Shown here in pieces: positions 2,008 through 51,606 of a DNA stretch of 64,000 nucleotides (its first letter is position 1; each line of letters opens with the position of its first letter). A program made the position numbers and the translations under genes. The stretch is from Nakamurella flava. GTDB lineage: Bacteria > Actinomycetota > Actinomycetes > Mycobacteriales > Nakamurellaceae. Under the pieces are notes generated by a model. The model did not search any database. It saw only the letters and a list, made by a program, of their open reading frames with translations, and had not been told where the DNA came from. Location of the stretch: assembly GCF_005298075.1 (NCBI RefSeq), contig NZ_SZZH01000001.1, forward strand, positions 1,674,001 to 1,738,000, given 5' to 3'.

Positions 2008-2218
2008 GGTGGCTCCTTCGCGGTGGGACGGTGACCGCCGGCCGGCCGGGAGTTCCCGGGCCGGGGCGGTCGACGGGTTCGGGCCTGGTCAACCCTAGAG
2101 CAGGGCGCATTCCCCGTTCGGACGATGCCCCACCAGGTCCCACCCGACGGCGGCACCCCCAGGACCCGCCGGGGCACCCACCGTCGCCGGGACCGCCGCG
2201 AGGCGGGACAATGACGCG

Positions 2219-4471
2219 GTGACCTCCAGCGACACCGCTCCCACCCCGGCGAACGACCAGACGGCCGCCCCGGCGACCCCCGCGACCCCGGCGGCCGCCG
2301 CGAAACCGGCCCGGACCGGGGTGAAGCCGGAGGCCAAGGCCATCGAGCCGTTCCACACGAGCGCCGGCGACCGGGCGCTGGTCAGCGCCCCGGCCGTGGA
2401 GGAGATCGAGTCCGAACCGCTGCCCGCCGACCGGTTCTCCAACCGGGAGCTCAGCTGGCTGGACTTCAACGCCCGGGTGCTCGCCCTCGCCGAGGACGCC
2501 GGCCAACCGCTGCTGGAGCGGGCCAAGTTCCTGGCCATCTTCTCCTCGAACCTCGACGAGTTCTACATGGTCCGGGTGGCCGGCCTGAAGCGCCGCCAGG
2601 AGATGGGCCTGTCCGTCAAGAGCGCCGACGGGCTGACCCCGGCCGAACAGCTGACGCTGATCAGCGCCCGCACCCAGGAGCTGGTCGACCGCCAGGGGCG
2701 GTGCCTCGAGGACGAGGTGCTGCCCGCACTGGAGGCCGAGGGCATCCGCATCGTGCACTGGAAGACCATCGACAAGCCCGACCGCAAGCGGCTGTCGGAG
2801 TATTTCAGCGACCACATCTTCCCGGTGCTCACCCCACTCGCGGTCGACCCGGCCCACCCGTTCCCCTACATCTCCGGGCTGTCGCTGAACCTGGGCATCG
2901 TCGTCCGCGACCCGGTCACCAAGGAGGAGCGGTTCGCCCGGGTGAAGGTGCCCGACAACGTCGACCGGTTCGTCCGGGTCAAGCCGGGGGTCGACGACTA
3001 CCTGCCGCTCGAGGACCTCATCGCCGCCCACCTGGTCGAGCTGTTCCCCGGGATGGACGTCATCGAGCACCTGGTCTTCCGGGTCACCCGCAACGCCGAC
3101 CTCGACGTCGAGGAGGACCGCGACGAGGACCTGCTGCAGGCGCTGGAACGCGAGCTGGCCCGCCGCCGGTTCGGGCCGCCGGTCCGACTGGAGATTAACT
3201 CCACCGGCAGCAGTGAGGTCATCACCCAGCTGCTCGCCGAGCTGGACGTCGACCAGGGCGAACTGGTCGAGGTGGACGGCCTGCTCGACCTGTCGAGCCT
3301 CTGGCAGTTCTACGGCCTGAATCGCCCGTCCCTGAAGGACGCGCCGTTCGTCCCGGCCACCAACCCGGCCTTTGTCGAGGGCGAGACGCCCAAGAGCGTC
3401 TTCGCGACCCTGCGGGCCGGGGACGTCCTCGTGCACCACCCCTACGAATCCTTCGCCACCACGGTGCAGCGGTTCATCGAGCAGGCCGCCGCCGACCCCA
3501 AGGTGCTGGCGATCAAGCAGACCCTCTACCGCACCTCGGGTGACTCCCCCATCGTCGACGCCCTGATCTCCGCGGCCGCCGCGGGCAAGCAGGTCGTGGC
3601 GCTGGTCGAGATCAAGGCCCGGTTCGACGAGCGGGCCAACATCTCCTGGGCCAAGACGCTGGAACGGGCCGGGGTGCACGTCGTCTACGGTCTCGTCGGC
3701 CTCAAGACCCACTGCAAGACGGCCCTGGTCATCCGCCAGGAGGGGCGCACCCTGCGCCGCTACTGCCACATCGGCACGGGCAACTACAACCCGAAGACGG
3801 CCCGCATCTACGAGGACCTCGGTCTGCTCACCTGCGACGAGGACATCACCGCGGACCTCACGGACCTGTTCAACGTGCTGACCGGGTACTCGCGGCAGAC
3901 CGAGTACCGCAACCTGCTGGTCGCTCCGCACTCGATCCGCAGCGGGGTCATCGGCCGCATCGAGCGGGAGATCGAACACCAGCGGGCGGGCCGGCCGGGC
4001 CTGGTGCGGCTGAAGATGAACTCCATCGTCGACGAGCCGGTCATCGACGCCCTCTACCGGGCGTCGCGGGCCGGTGTGCAGGTCGACGTCACGGTCCGCG
4101 GGATCTGCGCACTCCGCGCGGGCGTGCCCGGGCTGAGCGAGAACATCACCGTCCGGTCCATCGTCGGCCGGTTCCTCGAGCACTCGCGGATCTTCCACTT
4201 CCGCAACGGCGGCGACGAGGAGTACTGGATCGGCAGCGCGGACATGATGCACCGCAACCTCGATCGCCGGGTGGAGGCGCTCGTCCAGGTCAAGGCACCG
4301 TCGGCGACGGCCCGGATGGCCGGCCTGTTCGATCTCTACGCCCGGCCCGACACCCGGTGCTGGCTGCTGGGTCCCGACGGCTGGGAACGCTCGCCCGGTG
4401 CGGAGTCGGGCCTGGCCCCGGTCGACATCCAGCACGAGCTGCTGCGCAGCGGCGCCGCGCGTTCGGAATGA
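2219..4471 (+). CDS. ppk1: Polyphosphate kinase 1
   Basis: Makes long-chain polyphosphate from ATP, and the reverse, through a phosphohistidine. The 750-residue protein begins with about 65 residues of Ala/Pro-rich disordered sequence. The conserved N-terminal domain follows ([16 protein letters not shown], about 73-88). The C-terminal phospholipase-D-like domains carry the expected autophosphorylated histidine in [10 protein letters not shown] (His517) and the second active-site histidine in LEHSRIFHF (His655). The start is GTG at 2219; upstream lies 211 bp shared with the divergent plsC-gpsA unit. Its stop overlaps the next start as ATGA, so the Nudix/phosphatase gene is translationally coupled, the same arrangement seen for ppk1 and mutT1 in mycobacteria. 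Confidence 0.96.
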
Positions 4472-5373
4472 CGCCGCCGCCCGACGGGGTCGTGCAGGCG
4501 GCGGGGACGGTGCTGTGGCGGCCGTCGCGCCGTCATGGCGTGCTGATCGCGCTCGTCCACCGTCCCCGCTACGACGACTGGTCGCTGCCCAAGGGCAAAG
4601 CCGAACCCGGTGAGCTGGCCCCGGTCACCGCCGCCCGGGAGACGGTCGAGGAAACGGGCTTCACGACGGCCATCGGCCGTTCGCTGACCACCGTCTCCTA
4701 CCGGACCTCGGCCGGCCCCAAGGTGGTGCAGTACTTCACGGGGCGGTGCCTGACCGGTGAGTTCACCCCCAACAAGGAGGTCGACCGCCTGGAGTGGCTG
4801 CCGCCGGCCAAGGCTCGCGACCTGATGACGTACGAATTCGACCGGGCGGTGCTCAACACGTTCGGTCTGGAGGACCCGGCGCTGCCGGGAGTGCTCCTCG
4901 TCCGGCACGCCCGCGCCGGCTCCCGGGACTCGTGGGACGGTCGGGACGCCGACCGGCCGTTGGACGGCAAGGGCCGGCGGCAGTCCGCCGCTCTGGTGCC
5001 CGTCCTGCGGGCGTTCTGCCCGACCGCCGTGCACACCGCTCCCCTGGAGCGCTGCTGGGCGACCGTCGATCCGACGGCTCGGGCGTTGTCCCTGCCGGTG
5101 ACCCCGCAACCCGCGCTGAGCGAGGAGGCCTACCGGGACGACCCGGCCGGGGCCCGCCGGGTGATCGTCGAACTGGCCACCAGCGCCGCACCGGGGAACA
5201 CCGTGGTGGCCTGCAGCCAGGGCGGGGTCATCCCCGGGGTCATCAAATCGTTGGCCGGGCGCTCCGGCGTGCCGATCGGTGCCGTGGGCACCCCGAAAGC
5301 CGCCTCCTGGTATCTGTGCTTCGAGGGGCGCCGGCTGATCCAGGCGGACGCCTACCCCGCCCCCTCGGTCTGA
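4468..5373 (+). CDS. mutT1: Nudix hydrolase fused to histidine phosphatase (MutT1-like)
   Basis: Two-domain protein of 301 residues. Residues 8-135 form a Nudix domain with a complete Nudix box at 43-65 (GX5EX7REUXEEXGU; REX2EEXG visible as RETVEETG). Residues 140-300 form a histidine-phosphatase domain starting with LVRHARAG, with the phosphoacceptor His147. Mycobacterial MutT1 with this architecture hydrolyses diadenosine polyphosphates and 8-oxo-GTP/8-oxo-dGTP, using the second domain to finish the reaction. The start ATG at 4468 overlaps the ppk1 stop (ATGA). Coupling to polyphosphate kinase fits a role in nucleotide and phosphate housekeeping. The exact substrate is inferred from the family. 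Confidence 0.9.
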
Positions 5374-5391
5374 ATCGGCCACCGCGCCGAC

Positions 5392-5430
5392 GCTGCGCGA
5401 CCCCCGGGATGACCCGGTGGGTCGCGCAGC
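5392..5430. terminator. Convergent terminator hairpin, mutT1/hupB
   Basis: A 12-bp perfect stem (GCTGCGCGACCC at 5392-5403 with its complement at 5419-5430) continues into an inner CCGGG/CCCGG stem and a four-base loop. It lies between two converging genes and can serve both strands. There is no T-run. Confidence 0.75.
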
Positions 5431-5451
5431 GACGCGGAAGGGGCCGCCCGA

Positions 5452-6171
5452 CTACTTGGCGGCGGCGGCCCGGGTCCGCCGGGCGGCCGGCTTGGCGGCC
5501 GTGGTGGACGGGGCCGCCGTCTTGGTGGCGCGCGGCGCCTTGGCCGCAGCGGCGCCGTTGGACGCCGCCGCGGTCGCCTTGGTCGCCCGGGTGCGGGTCG
5601 TGGTCGGCGCGGCCGGCGCCGCGTCCGCGGTCGCCTTGGTCGCCCGGGCCCGCGTCGTCTTCGGAGCAGCGGCCGCAGCGGTGCTCGTCTTGGCCGCAGC
5701 GGTACCGGACGCCGCCCGGGAACGCGTGGTGGTCTTGGCCGGAGCGGCTGCCTTGGTGGCCGTGGTCTTCGCGGCCGGGGTGGTCTTGGTGGCCCGGGCG
5801 GCCTTGGCCTCGGCCGCGGCTTCCGCGGCGGCCTTCGCGGCCGCGGCGGCGGCCCGCGCGCTCAGCGGCTGACCGGTCGCCTTCGGCAGCTTGACGGTGC
5901 CGGAGATGATGTCCTTGAAGTACTTTCCGGGCCGGAACGCCGGCACGGTGGTCTTCTTGACCTTCACCGACTCGCCGGTGCGCGGGTTGCGCGCGGTGCG
6001 AGCGGCGCGGGCGCGCTTCTCGAACACGCCGAATCCGGAGATCGACACGCTCTTGCCTCGCTGCACCTCTCGCTGGACGAGGTCGATGAAGCCTTCGACC
6101 GCCACCTGAGCGGTCTTCTTGTCGCCGTCCAACCGCTCAGCGAGCTGGTTGATCAGGTCGGTCTTGTTCAC
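5452..6171 (-). CDS. hupB: DNA-binding protein HU with long Lys/Ala-rich tail
   Basis: Nucleoid-associated protein of 239 residues. Residues 1-90 are a typical HU/IHF fold (VNKTDLINQLAERL at the start; the DNA-binding arm contains TARNPRTGE and VPAFRPGK). The last ~145 residues are a low-complexity tail of Ala, Lys, Thr and Arg with many KTT, RTR and ATKA units, like the histone-H1-like tail of mycobacterial HupB. The tail should bind DNA non-specifically and is a target for lysine modification in relatives. The GTG start at 6171 is chosen because a strong Shine-Dalgarno (GGGAGGGG, four-base spacing) sits directly before it; an upstream ATG at 6225 lacks conservation. It is monocistronic and bounded by hairpins on both sides. 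Confidence 0.96.
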   Translation of the reverse strand: MNKTDLINQLAERLDGDKKTAQVAVEGFIDLVQREVQRGKSVSISGFGVFEKRARAARTARNPRTGESVKVKKTTVPAFRPGKYFKDIISGTVKLPKATGQPLSARAAAAAAKAAAEAAAEAKAARATKTTPAAKTTATKAAAPAKTTTRSRAASGTAAAKTSTAAAAAPKTTRARATKATADAAPAAPTTTRTRATKATAAASNGAAAAKAPRATKTAAPSTTAAKPAARRTRAAAAK

Positions 6172-6386
6172 GGTGCCCCTCCCGGCGTCGCGCGGCCCGC
6201 GGCAGTGCTGGGGCCGATGGCGCACACGCTAAACCCGCAACCGGCCGCAGCGCCAGCGTGGCGCGCACAGAACCGACTGTCGGGTAACGCTTCTCGTCGC
6301 CCCCGTCACCGGATCGGGGAGTGCCTGCCGGAGCTCCGAACGGCCCGGGCGAGCCGGACGGAGGGGCCAGATCCGTTGTCAGATAA

Positions 6387-6452
6387 CGGTTCTCGGTGAG
6401 CTAAATCGGTCCCGACGGCCATTTGTTGGTGGCCGCCGGGACCCGAGAACCG
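6387..6452 (-). terminator. Nested hairpin downstream of leuD
   Basis: The core is a 14-bp stem with one A/C mismatch (6408-6421 with 6430-6443) and an 8-base loop. A second, outer pair CGGTTCTCGG (6387-6396) with CCGAGAACCG (6443-6452) surrounds it, sharing one base with the core. The leuD stop is just beyond at 6454, so on the minus strand this is the expected terminator; GATTTAG follows the core stem. The remainder of the 282-bp gap to hupB (6172-6453) holds no gene that I can support. Confidence 0.7.
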
Positions 6453-6453
6453 G

Positions 6454-7041
6454 TCAGCGCGTGGTGGGGGTGAAGGCCGGGCGAGCGGCCTCGAAACGCT
6501 CGATCTCGTCGGCATGTCGCAGGGTCAGGGAGATGTCGTCCCAGCCCTCGAGCAGCCGCCACCGGGTGTAGGGGTCGATCGAGAACGGCACGGTCAGCGC
6601 CTTGCCCGACACCGTCTGCTTGACCAGGTCGACGGTCAGCTCGGTGCCCGGCTCGTTCTCCAGGAGCTTCCAGATGAGCTCGACGTCATCCTGGGCGACC
6701 TCTGCCGCCAGCAGGCCGCCCTTCCCGGAATTGCCCCGGAAGATGTCGGCGAAGCGGGACGAGATGACGACGCGGAAGCCGTAGTTCATCAGGGCCCAGA
6801 CCGCGTGCTCCCGCGAGGATCCGGTGCCGAAGTCGGGTCCGGCCACGAGCACCGAGCCCGACGAGAACGCCGGCTGGTTCAGGACGAAGGTCGGGTCGTT
6901 GCGCCAAGCGGCGAACAGGCCGTCCTCGAAGCCGGACCGGGTGATCCGCTTGAGGTAGACGGCCGGGATGATCTGGTCGGTGTCGACGTTGCTGCGGCGC
7001 AACGGGACTCCGACGCCGGTGTGCGTGGTGAAGGCTTCCAT
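6454..7041 (-). CDS. leuD: 3-isopropylmalate dehydratase small subunit
   Basis: Small subunit of isopropylmalate isomerase, second step of leucine synthesis. The 195-residue sequence has the swivel-domain signatures [14 protein letters not shown] near residue 18 and [17 protein letters not shown] near residue 68. That serine/arginine loop contributes to substrate binding when the subunit docks on LeuC. A GGAG at seven-base spacing supports the ATG at 7041. It lies 118 bp downstream of leuC on the same strand and ends at a strong hairpin, so leuCD form one unit. Length is normal for the family. Confidence 0.96.
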
Positions 7042-7159
7042 CGGGATTCTCCGGGAGGTGGGGCCGCCCCGCGTCGTACGACGGGCGGGGCGGGAGGACT
7101 GGCGGGTGCGGGCGGTTCTTCGGGAACCACCCGCCCGCGGGGACGAAGGGCCGGGTGGA

Positions 7160-8623
7160 TCAGGAAGCGCCGACGAGGTCGCCGGCGGGCTCCAGATCGG
7201 CCGGGGAGGAAAGGGTTCCGCGCACCGCGGTGGCCGCGGCCACCAGTGGGGACACCAGATGGGTCCGTCCGCCCTTGCCCTGCCGGCCCTCGAAGTTGCG
7301 GTTCGAGGTGGATGCGCTGCGCTCCCCCGGAGCCAGCTGGTCGGGATTCATCCCCAGACACATCGAGCAGCCCGCCATCCGCCACTCGGCCCCGAAATCG
7401 GTGAAGACCCGATCCAGCCCCTCGGCCTCGGCCTGCGCCTTGACCCGCATCGAGCCGGGAACCACCATCATGCGGACGTTCTCGGCGACCCGCCGGCCAC
7501 GGATGACGTCCGCCGCCGCGCGCAGGTCCTCGATGCGCCCGTTCGTGCAGGAACCGAGAAAGACGGTGTCGACCCGGATCTCCCGCAGCGGCGTGTTCGC
7601 CTCCAGGCCCATGTACTCCAGCGCGCGCGAGGCGGCCAGCTTCTCGTTCTCGTCGGTGATGTCGGCCGGATCCGGCACCCGGTCCCCGAGCGGCACACCC
7701 TGTCCCGGGTTCGTGCCCCAGGTGACGAACGGAGTGAGCTCGTCGGCGTTCAGGACGACCTCGGCGTCGAAGACGGCGTCCTCGTCGGTGACGAGGGTCT
7801 TCCAATACTCGACGGCGGCGTCCCAGTCCGCCCCCTTCGGAGCGTGTTCCCGGCCCTGCACGTAGGCGAAGGTCGTCTCGTCCGGCGCGATCATGCCGGC
7901 CCGGGCACCCGCCTCGATCGACATGTTGCAGATGGTCATCCGGCCTTCCATCGACAGCGCCCGGATGGCCTCGCCGCGGTACTCGAGCACGTAGCCCTGG
8001 CCGCCGCCGGTGCCGATCTTGGCGATGACGGCCAGGATGATGTCCTTGCTCGTCACCCCGGGGGCCAGCTCACCCTCGACGGTGATGGCCATCGTCTTGA
8101 ACGGCTTGAGCGGCAGCGTCTGGGTGGCCATGACGTGCTCGACCTCGCTGGTGCCGATGCCGAAGGCCAGGGCACCGAACGCACCGTGCGTGGAGGTGTG
8201 GGAGTCGCCGCAGACGATCGTCATGCCCGGCTGGGTGAGCCCGGTCTGCGGGCCGACGACGTGCACGATGCCCTGCTCCCGGTCGCCCATGGGGAACAGC
8301 CGGACGCCGAACTCCTCGCAATTCTTGCGCAGGGTCTCCACCTGCAGCCGGGAGACCGGATCGGCGATGAACAGGTTGGTCGAACGGCCGCTCGGGCCGC
8401 CGGCACCGGACTCGGGGAACAGGGTGGGGACGTTGTGGTCCTCGGTCGCCACGGTCAGGTCCGGGCGGCGGATCTGGCGGCCGGCCAAGCGCAGGCCGTC
8501 GAAAGCCTGCGGGCTGGTCACCTCGTGGACGAGGTGCAGATCGATGTAGAGCAGGTCCGGTTCGTTCTCGGCCGAGTGCACGACGTGTGCCTCCCAGACC
8601 TTCTCGGCCAGTGTCTTGCCCAT
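7160..8623 (-). CDS. leuC: 3-isopropylmalate dehydratase large subunit
   Basis: Aconitase-family subunit carrying the 4Fe-4S cluster that isomerises 2- to 3-isopropylmalate. The 487-residue sequence starts [15 protein letters not shown], the usual LeuC N-terminus, and contains the cluster cysteines in [13 protein letters not shown] and [11 protein letters not shown]. The substrate loop [12 protein letters not shown] is present. The ATG at 8623 has an excellent AGGAGGT at seven-base spacing, which decides it over an upstream in-frame ATG that would add about 60 unconserved residues. The divergent NdgR-type regulator shares the 204-bp upstream region, an arrangement known in Streptomyces where NdgR controls leuCD. 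Confidence 0.97.
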
Positions 8624-10273: not shown

Positions 10274-11527
10274 GTGGCCCCGTCCACGTCACACAACCGT
10301 CCCGGGTCCGACGAGACACCGGCCGCGCCGGTGTCCTGGTGGCGCCGGTTGCTCTTCGGGCCGGGACAGCCCGATGCGGTGCCGGCCGCGGTCCAGGCGC
10401 CCGAGGAGGATCCGCCGCTCGGCGTACCCGATTCCGTCCTGGACCCGGACGGCGTTCGCGGCGAGGTCGACGGCGACCGGTCCGGCCAGTGGTACGAGGC
10501 CGACGTGACCGTCCCGTCCTCGCCGGACGGCGACCCCGAATCCGCCGCTGGAACGCCGGCGGCCACCGACCACGCCGAGGCCGCCCCGCCCGCGTCCGAC
10601 GACGCGCCGCCGGTCGACTCCACCGACCCGGTGTCCGGCGTACGCCGGCTCAGCAACCAGGCCGTGCTGGCCGGAGGGGTGACCGCCGGCCCGGACAGCC
10701 CCGTCGCCGGGGCCGTGCTGGTCGTGCTCGACCCGACCGGCACCGAGGTCACGCGCGGCCGCAGCGACGAGAACGGTCGCTACCAGCTCACCCTGCCGAC
10801 CGGGGGCAACTACCTGGTGGCGGTCAACACCGAGGGCCATCGGCCGAGCATCGCGTCGGTCACCGTCGCCGCCGACCGGGTCGACCGTGACTTCACCCTG
10901 TCGGCGATCAGCGCCCTGGGCGGGGTGGTCCGCGCCGCGGACGGCACCGGTTGTCCCGACGCGTCGGTCACGCTCATCGACGCCGGCGGCGACGTGGTCG
11001 CCGTGGCCCGGACCGGTCCGGACGGCGGCTACGAACTGAGCGACCTCTACCCGGGCGAGTACACCCTCACGGCCATCGTCCCGGACGCCGGAACGACCGC
11101 CCGGCCGGTCCAACTGGCCGGATCGGCCCGGGTGACGGTCGACGTCGACCTGCCGGCCACCGGCACCGTCCTGGGCGTCGTGACCCGGCAGGGCAGCGAC
11201 GAACCCATCGCCGACGCGCAGGTCGCCGTCCTGGACGCGGCCGGTCTGCCCGCCGCCTCCGCGGTCACCGGGGACGACGGCGCGTTCCGCATCGACGATC
11301 TGCCGTCCGGCACGTACACGGTGGTAGCGAGCGGCTACGCCCCCACCGCCCGTCCGGTGCGGGTGCAGGCCGGTCCGGGCGAGATGGTCGACCTGTCCAT
11401 CGGGCACCAGGCCGACACCACGGCCCTGCCCCGCGGGCGCCACGCCCGCACCGACACCGCGTCCACCACCGACGGGGACGGCTCCGCGACGGACGCCGCC
11501 CAGCAGAGCCCGGTGGGGTCCCGGTGA
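10274..11527 (+). CDS. Carboxypeptidase-regulatory/Cna-B-like multi-domain protein
   Basis: 417-residue protein of unknown function. The first ~115 residues are acidic and disordered after a short SWWRRLLFG segment. Then come three consecutive beta-sandwich repeats of the carboxypeptidase-regulatory-like/Cna-B type, at about 120-215, 215-295 and 295-375. Each has a recurring DxxGxY or DDGAFRI turn (DENGRYQLTLP, GPDGGYELSDLYPGEY, GDDGAFRIDDLPSGTY). No signal peptide, transmembrane helix or sortase motif is visible, which is odd because such domains usually work outside the cell. GGGAGG four bases before GTG 10274 supports this start; ATG 10211 is the alternative. The stop overlaps the next start as GTGA, so it works with the YceI-fusion partner. 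Confidence 0.75.
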   Translation: MAPSTSHNRPGSDETPAAPVSWWRRLLFGPGQPDAVPAAVQAPEEDPPLGVPDSVLDPDGVRGEVDGDRSGQWYEADVTVPSSPDGDPESAAGTPAATDHAEAAPPASDDAPPVDSTDPVSGVRRLSNQAVLAGGVTAGPDSPVAGAVLVVLDPTGTEVTRGRSDENGRYQLTLPTGGNYLVAVNTEGHRPSIASVTVAADRVDRDFTLSAISALGGVVRAADGTGCPDASVTLIDAGGDVVAVARTGPDGGYELSDLYPGEYTLTAIVPDAGTTARPVQLAGSARVTVDVDLPATGTVLGVVTRQGSDEPIADAQVAVLDAAGLPAASAVTGDDGAFRIDDLPSGTYTVVASGYAPTARPVRVQAGPGEMVDLSIGHQADTTALPRGRHARTDTASTTDGDGSATDAAQQSPVGSR

Positions 11528-50414: not shown

Positions 50415-51539
50415 TCAGGCCAGACGGAGGTCGGTCAGCCGGCTGAGCTGCTGGTCCCGCTCCACCCGTTCGGTGACGTCCAGCTGGTAGCCGATGTAGT
50501 GGGTGAGCCGGCCCGCCTTGTTCCGCACCGGGGACAGGTGGAACTCGTTCCAGAACTCGGCACCGTTGCGCTTGATGTTGCGGATCAACGTATCGATCGA
50601 ACGCCCGGCGACGATGGCGTCCCGGATCTCGTGCCGCAGCCGGGGGTCGCCGTACGGCCCCTGCAGGAACCGGCAGTTGCGGCCCAGCACCTCCTCGGCG
50701 GAGTACCCCGTCAGCCGCTCGAACGCCGGGTTGACGTACACCAGCGGCTGGTCCTCGGCGAGGATGTCGGCCACGGTGATCGCCACCGACGCCTCGTGCG
50801 TGGCCCGGGTCAGGATGCCGGGCAACAGGGCCTGCGGGATGAGACCGGAGGTCGGCGAGGACCCCGTCTCGGCCGACGGCGCCGACCACCCCTCGGTCAG
50901 CGGGGCCGGACTGCCCAGTCCCTCGAAGACCGCGGACACCCGCTGCCGCAACGGCATCCCCGGGTCGGCCACCGCCCAACCCTCGACCAGGGCGGCGCCC
51001 AGATCGCGCAGCTTGCGGTTGGTGTGGGAGGAATGCCACTTGAGCAGGTCGAACGCCTGCTCGGCGTCGAGATCGTAGGCCGCCATGATCATGCCCTTGG
51101 CCTGGTCGATCTGACTGCGCGTCGCCGCCGAGGCGCGCACCGCCTGGGTGATCTCCGAATCGGTGGCCGCGCGCAGACGGTTGGTCAGATCGGTCACCAC
51201 GCCGGTCACCGTGCGGGTCCGGCCGATGGTCGGACCGGCCGCGAAAGTCGTCGTCGCCGTCCGCTCGCTGCGGTCGGCGGTGACCAGCCGATGACCGATG
51301 ACCACGGCCTCACCGGTGGTCAGGCACCGCTGGAGCGCGGTCTGCCAGGCCACCCGGTCGACCGCGTGCACATGAGCGGACAGCATGACCGCCGTGAAGA
51401 GCACCTCGCCCGGGGTGAAGCCCAGCACCGTCGCCAGATCGTCGGATCCGCTGAAACGCGACACCTCGCCGTCACTGTCCACCTCGACGACGAATGTCCC
51501 GAACGACAGCCGTCCGGTCGGTTCGTCCACAGTGAGCAA
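50415..51539 (-). CDS. PAS-ANTAR-LOV blue-light receptor (PAL-like)
   Basis: 374-residue three-domain protein. Residues ~12-115 form a PAS domain. Residues ~138-190 are an ANTAR RNA-binding domain (SQIDQAKGMIMAAYDLDAEQ; NRKLRDLG). Residues ~250-360 form a LOV domain with the flavin photochemistry motif GRNCRFLQG; Cys289 is the adduct-forming cysteine. FMN-contact residues follow in IRNIKRNGAEFWNEF and YIGYQLDVTE. This order is that of PAL from Nakamurella multipartita, shown to bind RNA stem-loops in blue light. Here the ANTAR domain lies between the sensors instead of at the C-terminus. Start is TTG 51539, chosen for GGAGG at eight-base spacing. No histidine kinase partner is nearby. Confidence 0.9.
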   Translation of the reverse strand: MLTVDEPTGRLSFGTFVVEVDSDGEVSRFSGSDDLATVLGFTPGEVLFTAVMLSAHVHAVDRVAWQTALQRCLTTGEAVVIGHRLVTADRSERTATTTFAAGPTIGRTRTVTGVVTDLTNRLRAATDSEITQAVRASAATRSQIDQAKGMIMAAYDLDAEQAFDLLKWHSSHTNRKLRDLGAALVEGWAVADPGMPLRQRVSAVFEGLGSPAPLTEGWSAPSAETGSSPTSGLIPQALLPGILTRATHEASVAITVADILAEDQPLVYVNPAFERLTGYSAEEVLGRNCRFLQGPYGDPRLRHEIRDAIVAGRSIDTLIRNIKRNGAEFWNEFHLSPVRNKAGRLTHYIGYQLDVTERVERDQQLSRLTDLRLA

Positions 51540-51606
51540 CGGTCACACCTCCAGCCTTCAACCACCGGCGAACGGCCGTCTGTTTGACCGAAGCACTCCC
51601 AGCTTA
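51540..51606 (-). promoter_or_regulatory. PAL leader: -10 and start-flanking inverted repeat
   Basis: Minus-strand TAAGCT (51601-51606) is a plausible -10, giving a leader of about 55 nt. In it CGGTCA (51585-51590) can pair with TGACCG (51540-51545), which ends immediately before the TTG start and leaves the Shine-Dalgarno in the enclosed loop. A smaller CGGC/GCCG hairpin lies inside. Confidence 0.4.

Follow-up and report, generated by a model that had tools for sequence, protein, structure and literature searches.

A probable PAL-type photoreceptor of Nakamurella flava and a candidate RNA hairpin for its recognition

The window, a stretch of 64,000 nucleotides of the Nakamurella flava genome, encodes an ortholog of the photoreceptor PAL of N. 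multipartita (NmPAL), and a hairpin elsewhere in the same genome closely matches Nm60, a published candidate RNA of N. multipartita. We consider it likely that the protein is an NmPAL-type receptor acting in trans and that this hairpin is its most likely cognate RNA. The hairpin may also be a physiological target of PAL, a claim to which we give slightly less than even weight. The protein itself belongs to the known PAL kind; the value of the find is comparative evidence on the natural PAL RNA. Now that a second species is seen to have both a close PAL ortholog and a hairpin that matches, and a third a related hairpin, the native-target question becomes directly testable.

PAL serves as a tool for the light control of RNA (PMC10966536, PMC11381354). 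PMC10966536 (2024) states the natural RNA of NmPAL to be unknown, in agreement with the initial annotation, which had called the natural targets unclear. A 2022 review likewise describes natural PAL targets as not identified and considers antitermination likely (PMC9614035), and no native PAL target is named in the openly licensed papers surveyed, judged by titles and the beginnings of abstracts. In vitro selection with NmPAL from a random library is reported to have yielded a hairpin with the loop AGCAGC (aptamer 58, motif 3), bound at 3.5 nM in the lit state and at more than 3 uM in the dark, values that belong to aptamer 58 and not to Nm60 (PMC10966536). Nm60 (UUCAGCAGCGAG) is a genomic candidate from N. 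multipartita with the same AGCAGC loop, and its published placing is in a 5'-UTR (PMC10966536).

The PAL protein and its relatives

The PAL gene occupies positions 50415-51539 of the window on the minus strand and encodes 374 amino acids in an intact reading frame, as supported by the open reading frame, the match to NmPAL and the alignment. Its start codon is TTG, and a Shine-Dalgarno-like GGAGGT, read by eye, lies 7 nt 5' of it (51547-51552, minus strand). The initial annotation had described PAS, ANTAR and LOV domains in one protein with GRNCRFLQG and Cys289, in the domain order of N. multipartita PAL; Pfam, phmmer and a 21-row alignment confirm both points. NmPAL (PDB 6hmj chain A) aligned end to end with residues 3-371 (502 bits, E 7.1e-150, phmmer), with 62.5% identity across 368 residues; by part, 56 of 107 residues were identical in the PAS domain, 46 of 66 in the ANTAR domain (residues 125-190) and 88 of 118 in the LOV domain. 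The ANTAR RNA-binding domain (residues 134-185; 50985-51140, minus strand) scored 56.3 bits with PF03861 against a cut-off of 27.3, and the LOV domain (residues 243-360; 50460-50813, minus strand) was recognized by PAS-fold families scoring 74.8 bits against a cut-off of 27 at residues 260-357. All of the best Pfam PAS stretches fell within the LOV domain, and it is the end-to-end phmmer alignment that covers the N-terminal PAS domain (residues about 10-120; 51180-51512, minus strand). In a single-chain AlphaFold2 model, block means of pLDDT were 86-95 at residues 11-120, and the whole model (mean pLDDT 70.8, pTM 0.36) was too weak for the LOV-ANTAR autoinhibitory interface. NCBIfam held no PAL-specific model, and PAL fell below every equivalog cut-off there, passing only that of the sensory_box domain.

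Cys289 (codon at 50673-50675, minus strand), the expected flavin-adduct cysteine within the LOV core GRNCRFLQG, corresponds to C284 of NmPAL. N288, C289, R290, Q293, N321, N331 and Q352 were invariant in all 21 rows, and R306 was present in 20. The initial annotation had proposed an alignment to NmPAL and an inspection of the FMN-contact residues; the adduct cysteine and the positions that we take to be the flavin (FMN) contacts are kept. Q352 is equivalent to Q347 of NmPAL, the signalling glutamine studied in PMC9098866. Judged from sequence, the window protein is an ortholog of NmPAL, the pattern being neither chance nor an artefact, and it is very probably a working PAL-type photoreceptor.

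Seventeen genomes of one family, all of the genus Nakamurella, were compared. Matches over most of PAL were found in four of them: the window genome (G000, 4.84 Mb), N. multipartita (G009), N. endophytica (G005) and N. deserti (G004), the last with two copies. Three further genomes matched in the LOV part only, and the lack of a match in G015 is less sure because that genome is 88% complete. A search of 298 genomes of the order at E 1e-60 gave the same four and no others. In the protein database, a search that scored the 7994 candidates sharing most words found at least 271 relatives at E 1e-30; 68 of the 120 homologs listed from these 271 carried ANTAR and PAS families, and the seven organism-named members among the 68 were all from Nakamurella. 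Close relatives in this database, P0001-P0004, were 85-98% identical. The viral contigs searched gave five LOV-type matches and no full-length PAL. Four database proteins (P0065 and P0067-P0069) combine a LOV-like PAS with HATPase_c_2 (PF13581) and are possibly light-controlled anti-sigma type kinases.

The PALs of N. deserti, two diverged copies (L142:8393-10159 and L143:7950-9596), and of N. endophytica keep the PAS-ANTAR-LOV core, with 50-52% identity over it, and are longer at the C-terminus than the window PAL. The N. endophytica protein P0028 (L144:8522-10135) reads PAS-ANTAR-LOV-GGDEF, its GGDEF-like part scoring 30.3 bits with PF00990 against a cut-off of 23.8; C-terminal extensions of similar length occur in other PALs of the alignment. 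The same N. endophytica locus contains a c-di-AMP riboswitch (RF00379, L144:17745-17939, 42.4 bits). Within the ANTAR domain, residues 174-176 (window 51012-51020, minus strand) read N-R-K in seven close PALs, with Arg175 at the center. All 14 more distant rows have a hydrophobic residue at this position (N-[I/V/L/M]-K), as does N. endophytica P0028 (Ile); N. deserti P0025 and P0038 have Val and Ile. Arg175 is a candidate specificity residue of the ANTAR domain.

The GT4, PIG-L, flippase and exporter genes around PAL, to which the initial annotation had looked for a clue to its role, did not serve as a functional guide. Matches among the five PAL loci were limited to PAL itself and ABC-type ATPases, in a comparison whose simple gene caller missed some genes, such as the window flippase. 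The GT4/PIG-L/flippase surroundings thus seem to say little about the role of PAL, and since the neighborhood is not conserved, PAL looks like a solitary gene that probably acts in trans. PAL is one of 14 ANTAR matches that exceed the Pfam family cut-off in the window genome. Another is a PAS-ANTAR paralog (G000:C7:38649-39254; L002:1246-2112, plus strand) that lacks a LOV match and is 40% identical to PAL residues 28-223.

A counterpart of Nm60 in the window genome

A search for TTCAGCAGCGAG found 42 sites in the 17 Nakamurella genomes; the reversed pattern gave 26. Stem lengths, with the three pairs that the pattern itself imposes included, were 3-7 bp at 40 of the 42 sites. The other two were Nm60, with a 13 bp stem (G009:C1:2302300-2302331, L266/L046, plus strand), and a 32 nt hairpin of the window genome with a 14 bp stem (G000:C1:940414-940445, L264/L029, minus strand), which lies about 784 kb from PAL and has the loop AGCAGC, with UUC/GAG at the top of its stem. 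When left flanks were paired with the right flanks of other sites, 8 bp or more formed in only 4 of 1722 combinations, one of which was the window-genome hairpin crossed with Nm60. The two hairpins are identical at 30 of 32 bases and differ by one compensatory pair, U-A against G-C. The top blastn match between the surrounding 16 and 17 kb covered exactly these 32 nt (93.75%, E 2.5e-7). No collinear match lay beside them, the flanks being non-homologous; the runner-up (53 bases, E 3.6e-5) was non-collinear and lay at a DUF305 gene or look-alike in both regions. The predicted folding energies were -28.8 kcal/mol for the window-genome hairpin and -29 kcal/mol for Nm60, with z about -5.9.

A covariance model built from these two sequences (R1) gave 54 and 53.5 bits to its own training hairpins. 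The next match in the genus, a palindrome with another loop, scored 36 bits in a search of 150 first-look candidates per genome (29 in G003). The background, taken from 1.8 Mb of other loci with each strand counted and Nm60 removed, comprised 59 hexaloop hairpins with at least 11 bp, and the loop AGCAGC occurred in none of them. In an order-wide R1 search of the 298 genomes with stricter filters, 12 genomes matched at E 0.001, and only the two training hairpins exceeded 46 bits. Of the ten loci from the other ten genomes, four (L232, L233, L236 and L237) carried AGCAGC on a long stem, in genomes outside the four that match PAL at E 1e-60; long AGCAGC hairpins are therefore not confined to PAL genomes. 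What is special about the window-genome hairpin and Nm60 is their match at 30 of 32 bases. Neither hairpin belonged to an Rfam family at gathering scores, and a 20-nt core had no match in the viral contigs. Closeness of the two species was considered as the reason for the common hairpin and rejected, since an EtfA tree grouped the window genome with G004 and N. multipartita with G015, with weak support.

A second long hairpin with a larger loop stands just upstream of the PAL-type hairpin of the window genome (L029:1541-1586, minus strand). Its loop holds CGCTGCTG, the exact complement of CAGCAGCG in the loop and closing pair of the PAL-type hairpin, and a loop-loop contact between the two is possible. 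No such complement was noticed in N. multipartita, and the folded N. multipartita stretch had no clear second hairpin.

A related hairpin and the genes downstream

N. endophytica has a related hairpin with a 14 bp stem and the loop AGCCAA (G005:C3:679161-679192, L263/L162, minus strand). It has the same top as the window-genome hairpin and Nm60 and is a weak R1 match (33.3 bits); GC-rich hairpins with other loops in genomes without PAL scored equally or nearly so (33.3 bits in G010 and 32.0 in G014). The pattern GGTTCAGCNNNGAGCC, chosen post hoc after this hairpin had been seen, occurred at 15 sites in the 17 genomes, against 4 for the pattern read backwards. Stems were 14, 13 and 14 bp long in the window genome, N. 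multipartita and N. endophytica and 5-8 bp at the other 12 sites. The long-stem hairpins, one copy per genome, were thus found in three of the four PAL genomes and in none of the 13 without a PAL match. N. deserti, with its two PALs, had no hairpin of this pattern in the GGTTCAGCNNNGAGCC search. Three genomes picked at random would all be PAL-bearing ones with a chance of 4 in 680 (3 in 120 with N. multipartita given); because the pattern was post hoc, this co-occurrence of PAL and hairpin is suggestive only. All 39 pair cells of the three-sequence stem are standard, and 3 of the 13 pairs change on both sides, which 18 of 500 shuffles equalled. The outer stem resembles that of N. endophytica no more, in our judgement, than GC-rich stems would by themselves. 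All three hairpins have U-G as their third pair, counted from the loop, as the search patterns demanded.

All three hairpins apparently lie between divergent genes, in the sense of the nearer downstream gene. In N. multipartita this gene encodes a PAS-SpoIIE-HATPase-STAS protein. Its first GTG stands 31 nt downstream of the hairpin, but translation may start later, because resemblance to the window-genome relative sets in about 50 residues inside the extended frame. A PAS-ANTAR-STAS gene (L159:10389-11411) adjoins it, and the pair hints at a stress partner-switching module. In the window genome, the ATG of a DUF3072 gene stands 79 nt downstream in the sense of the hairpin. A TACGAT box resembling a -10 element, read by eye, lies 7 nt before this ATG and suggests a leaderless DUF3072 transcript, so that the hairpin would fall outside the mRNA. 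In N. endophytica an APH-family kinase follows, with a plausible GTG 38 nt on; its divergent partner was chosen by eye and has no Pfam match. The N. multipartita and N. endophytica sites were scored as coding by script because open frames run over both, and the opposite-strand frame over the N. endophytica hairpin is taken as spurious.

Several other candidates were tried and rejected. The SpoIIE gene does not appear to be a common target: no AGCAGC was found on the coding strand within 1.5 kb upstream of its window-genome relative (C6:57605-59509, 41% identity), and relatives occurred in 2 of the 16 genomes searched. DUF3072, present in 9 of the 17 genomes, is absent from N. multipartita, and the other eight DUF3072 genes had no such hairpin within 600 nt upstream. 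Autoregulation at PAL through AGCAGC was rejected as well, as no AGCAGC loop in the window stands on a stem of at least 6 bp. The best R1 match in the window (11099-11133, plus strand, 22.4 bits) was at background level, a GC-rich hairpin whose loop differs. A generic-stem model built from 24 synthetic hairpins (R2) was of little use, because for each genome it scored 150 out of 2093-7305 first-look candidates, and it missed the known window-genome hairpin; its top match, in N. endophytica, lay inside an apparent coding ORF.

It is conceivable, and to us a serious though not the favored possibility, that PAL is a photoreceptor while the hairpin is a DNA inverted repeat that serves some dimeric regulator as its operator, or else a small palindromic element between divergent genes. 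The apparent position of all three hairpins is where operators belong, in the window genome a possible promoter separates the hairpin from the gene, homology ends at the hairpin edges, and the compensatory changes keep a palindrome intact in DNA just as they do a stem in RNA. However, the hairpin top is the 12-mer that in vitro selection linked to NmPAL (PMC10966536). The U-G third pair is a mismatch in a palindrome, although the search patterns required it, and the single copy found per genome is unlike a spreading repeat. It is unlikely that the hairpin is instead the target of another ANTAR protein common to these genomes and its link to PAL coincidental. The 14 ANTAR matches of the window genome, with the PAS-ANTAR paralog among them, and the PAS-ANTAR-STAS gene next to the hairpin-bearing SpoIIE gene would provide such proteins, but NmPAL itself selected the hairpin top from a random library (PMC10966536). 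An ordinary intrinsic terminator is more doubtful still: GC-rich perfect hairpins are common, as the 59 of the background show, but none of those had the AGCAGC loop, no U-run follows the hairpin, and it apparently lies between divergent genes in all three genomes. That the window PAL is a relic without light-gating or RNA binding is very improbable in view of its intact reading frame, its conserved LOV and ANTAR residues and its close relatives P0001-P0004.

Proposed mode of action and comparison with known systems

Among these readings we prefer an NmPAL-type receptor that acts in trans on the window-genome hairpin. In NmPAL, the dark LOV domain reportedly restrains ANTAR, and the adduct formed in blue light frees ANTAR to bind RNA. 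We infer light-gating, binding of the window-genome hairpin and a regulatory effect for the window protein. By homology with NmPAL, the C-terminal LOV domain would hold the central ANTAR domain inactive in the dark, formation of the flavin-Cys289 adduct under blue light would release this inhibition, and the freed ANTAR domain would bind a specific RNA hairpin. The lit protein is expected to bind a single hairpin whose loop begins with A. The distance from the hairpin end to the start codon may be 31-38 nt in N. multipartita and N. endophytica, and there PAL on the hairpin could interfere with the loading of ribosomes. Antitermination is the general mode of ANTAR proteins; no terminator was identified.

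More tentatively, PAL targets could be a small family of hairpins, each of 13-14 bp and topped by GGUUC-AGCNNN-GAGCC, that three or more PAL-bearing species share, one receptor in trans controlling genes that vary between lineages. If this is true, hairpins lying between divergent genes and kept by compensatory changes precede genes for a SpoIIE-type phosphatase, a DUF3072 protein and an APH-family kinase, and a single, non-canonical hairpin serves as the ANTAR ligand.

The window protein resembles NmPAL in its domain order, similar length, adduct and flavin-contact residues and signalling glutamine. It differs in its genomic neighborhood, and the N-terminal PAS domain is the most diverged part. 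The loop and top of Nm60 and motif 3, UUC AGCAGC GAG, are identical in the window-genome hairpin, but Nm60 precedes a PAS-SpoIIE-HATPase-STAS gene whereas the window-genome hairpin sits 79 nt upstream of DUF3072. The initial annotation had cited the usual ANTAR rule of paired stem-loops that prevent termination, a rule that need not extend to PAL, whose reported ligands are short single hairpins. Canonical ANTAR RNAs are described as dual stem-loops, with A1 and G4 in their hexaloops (PMC8164766, PMC7496416). The PAL-type candidate has in common with canonical ANTAR RNAs a hexaloop with A1 closed by C-G. In place of G4, however, it has A in the window genome and N. multipartita and C in N. endophytica, and it appears to be a single hairpin where the canonical RNAs are paired.
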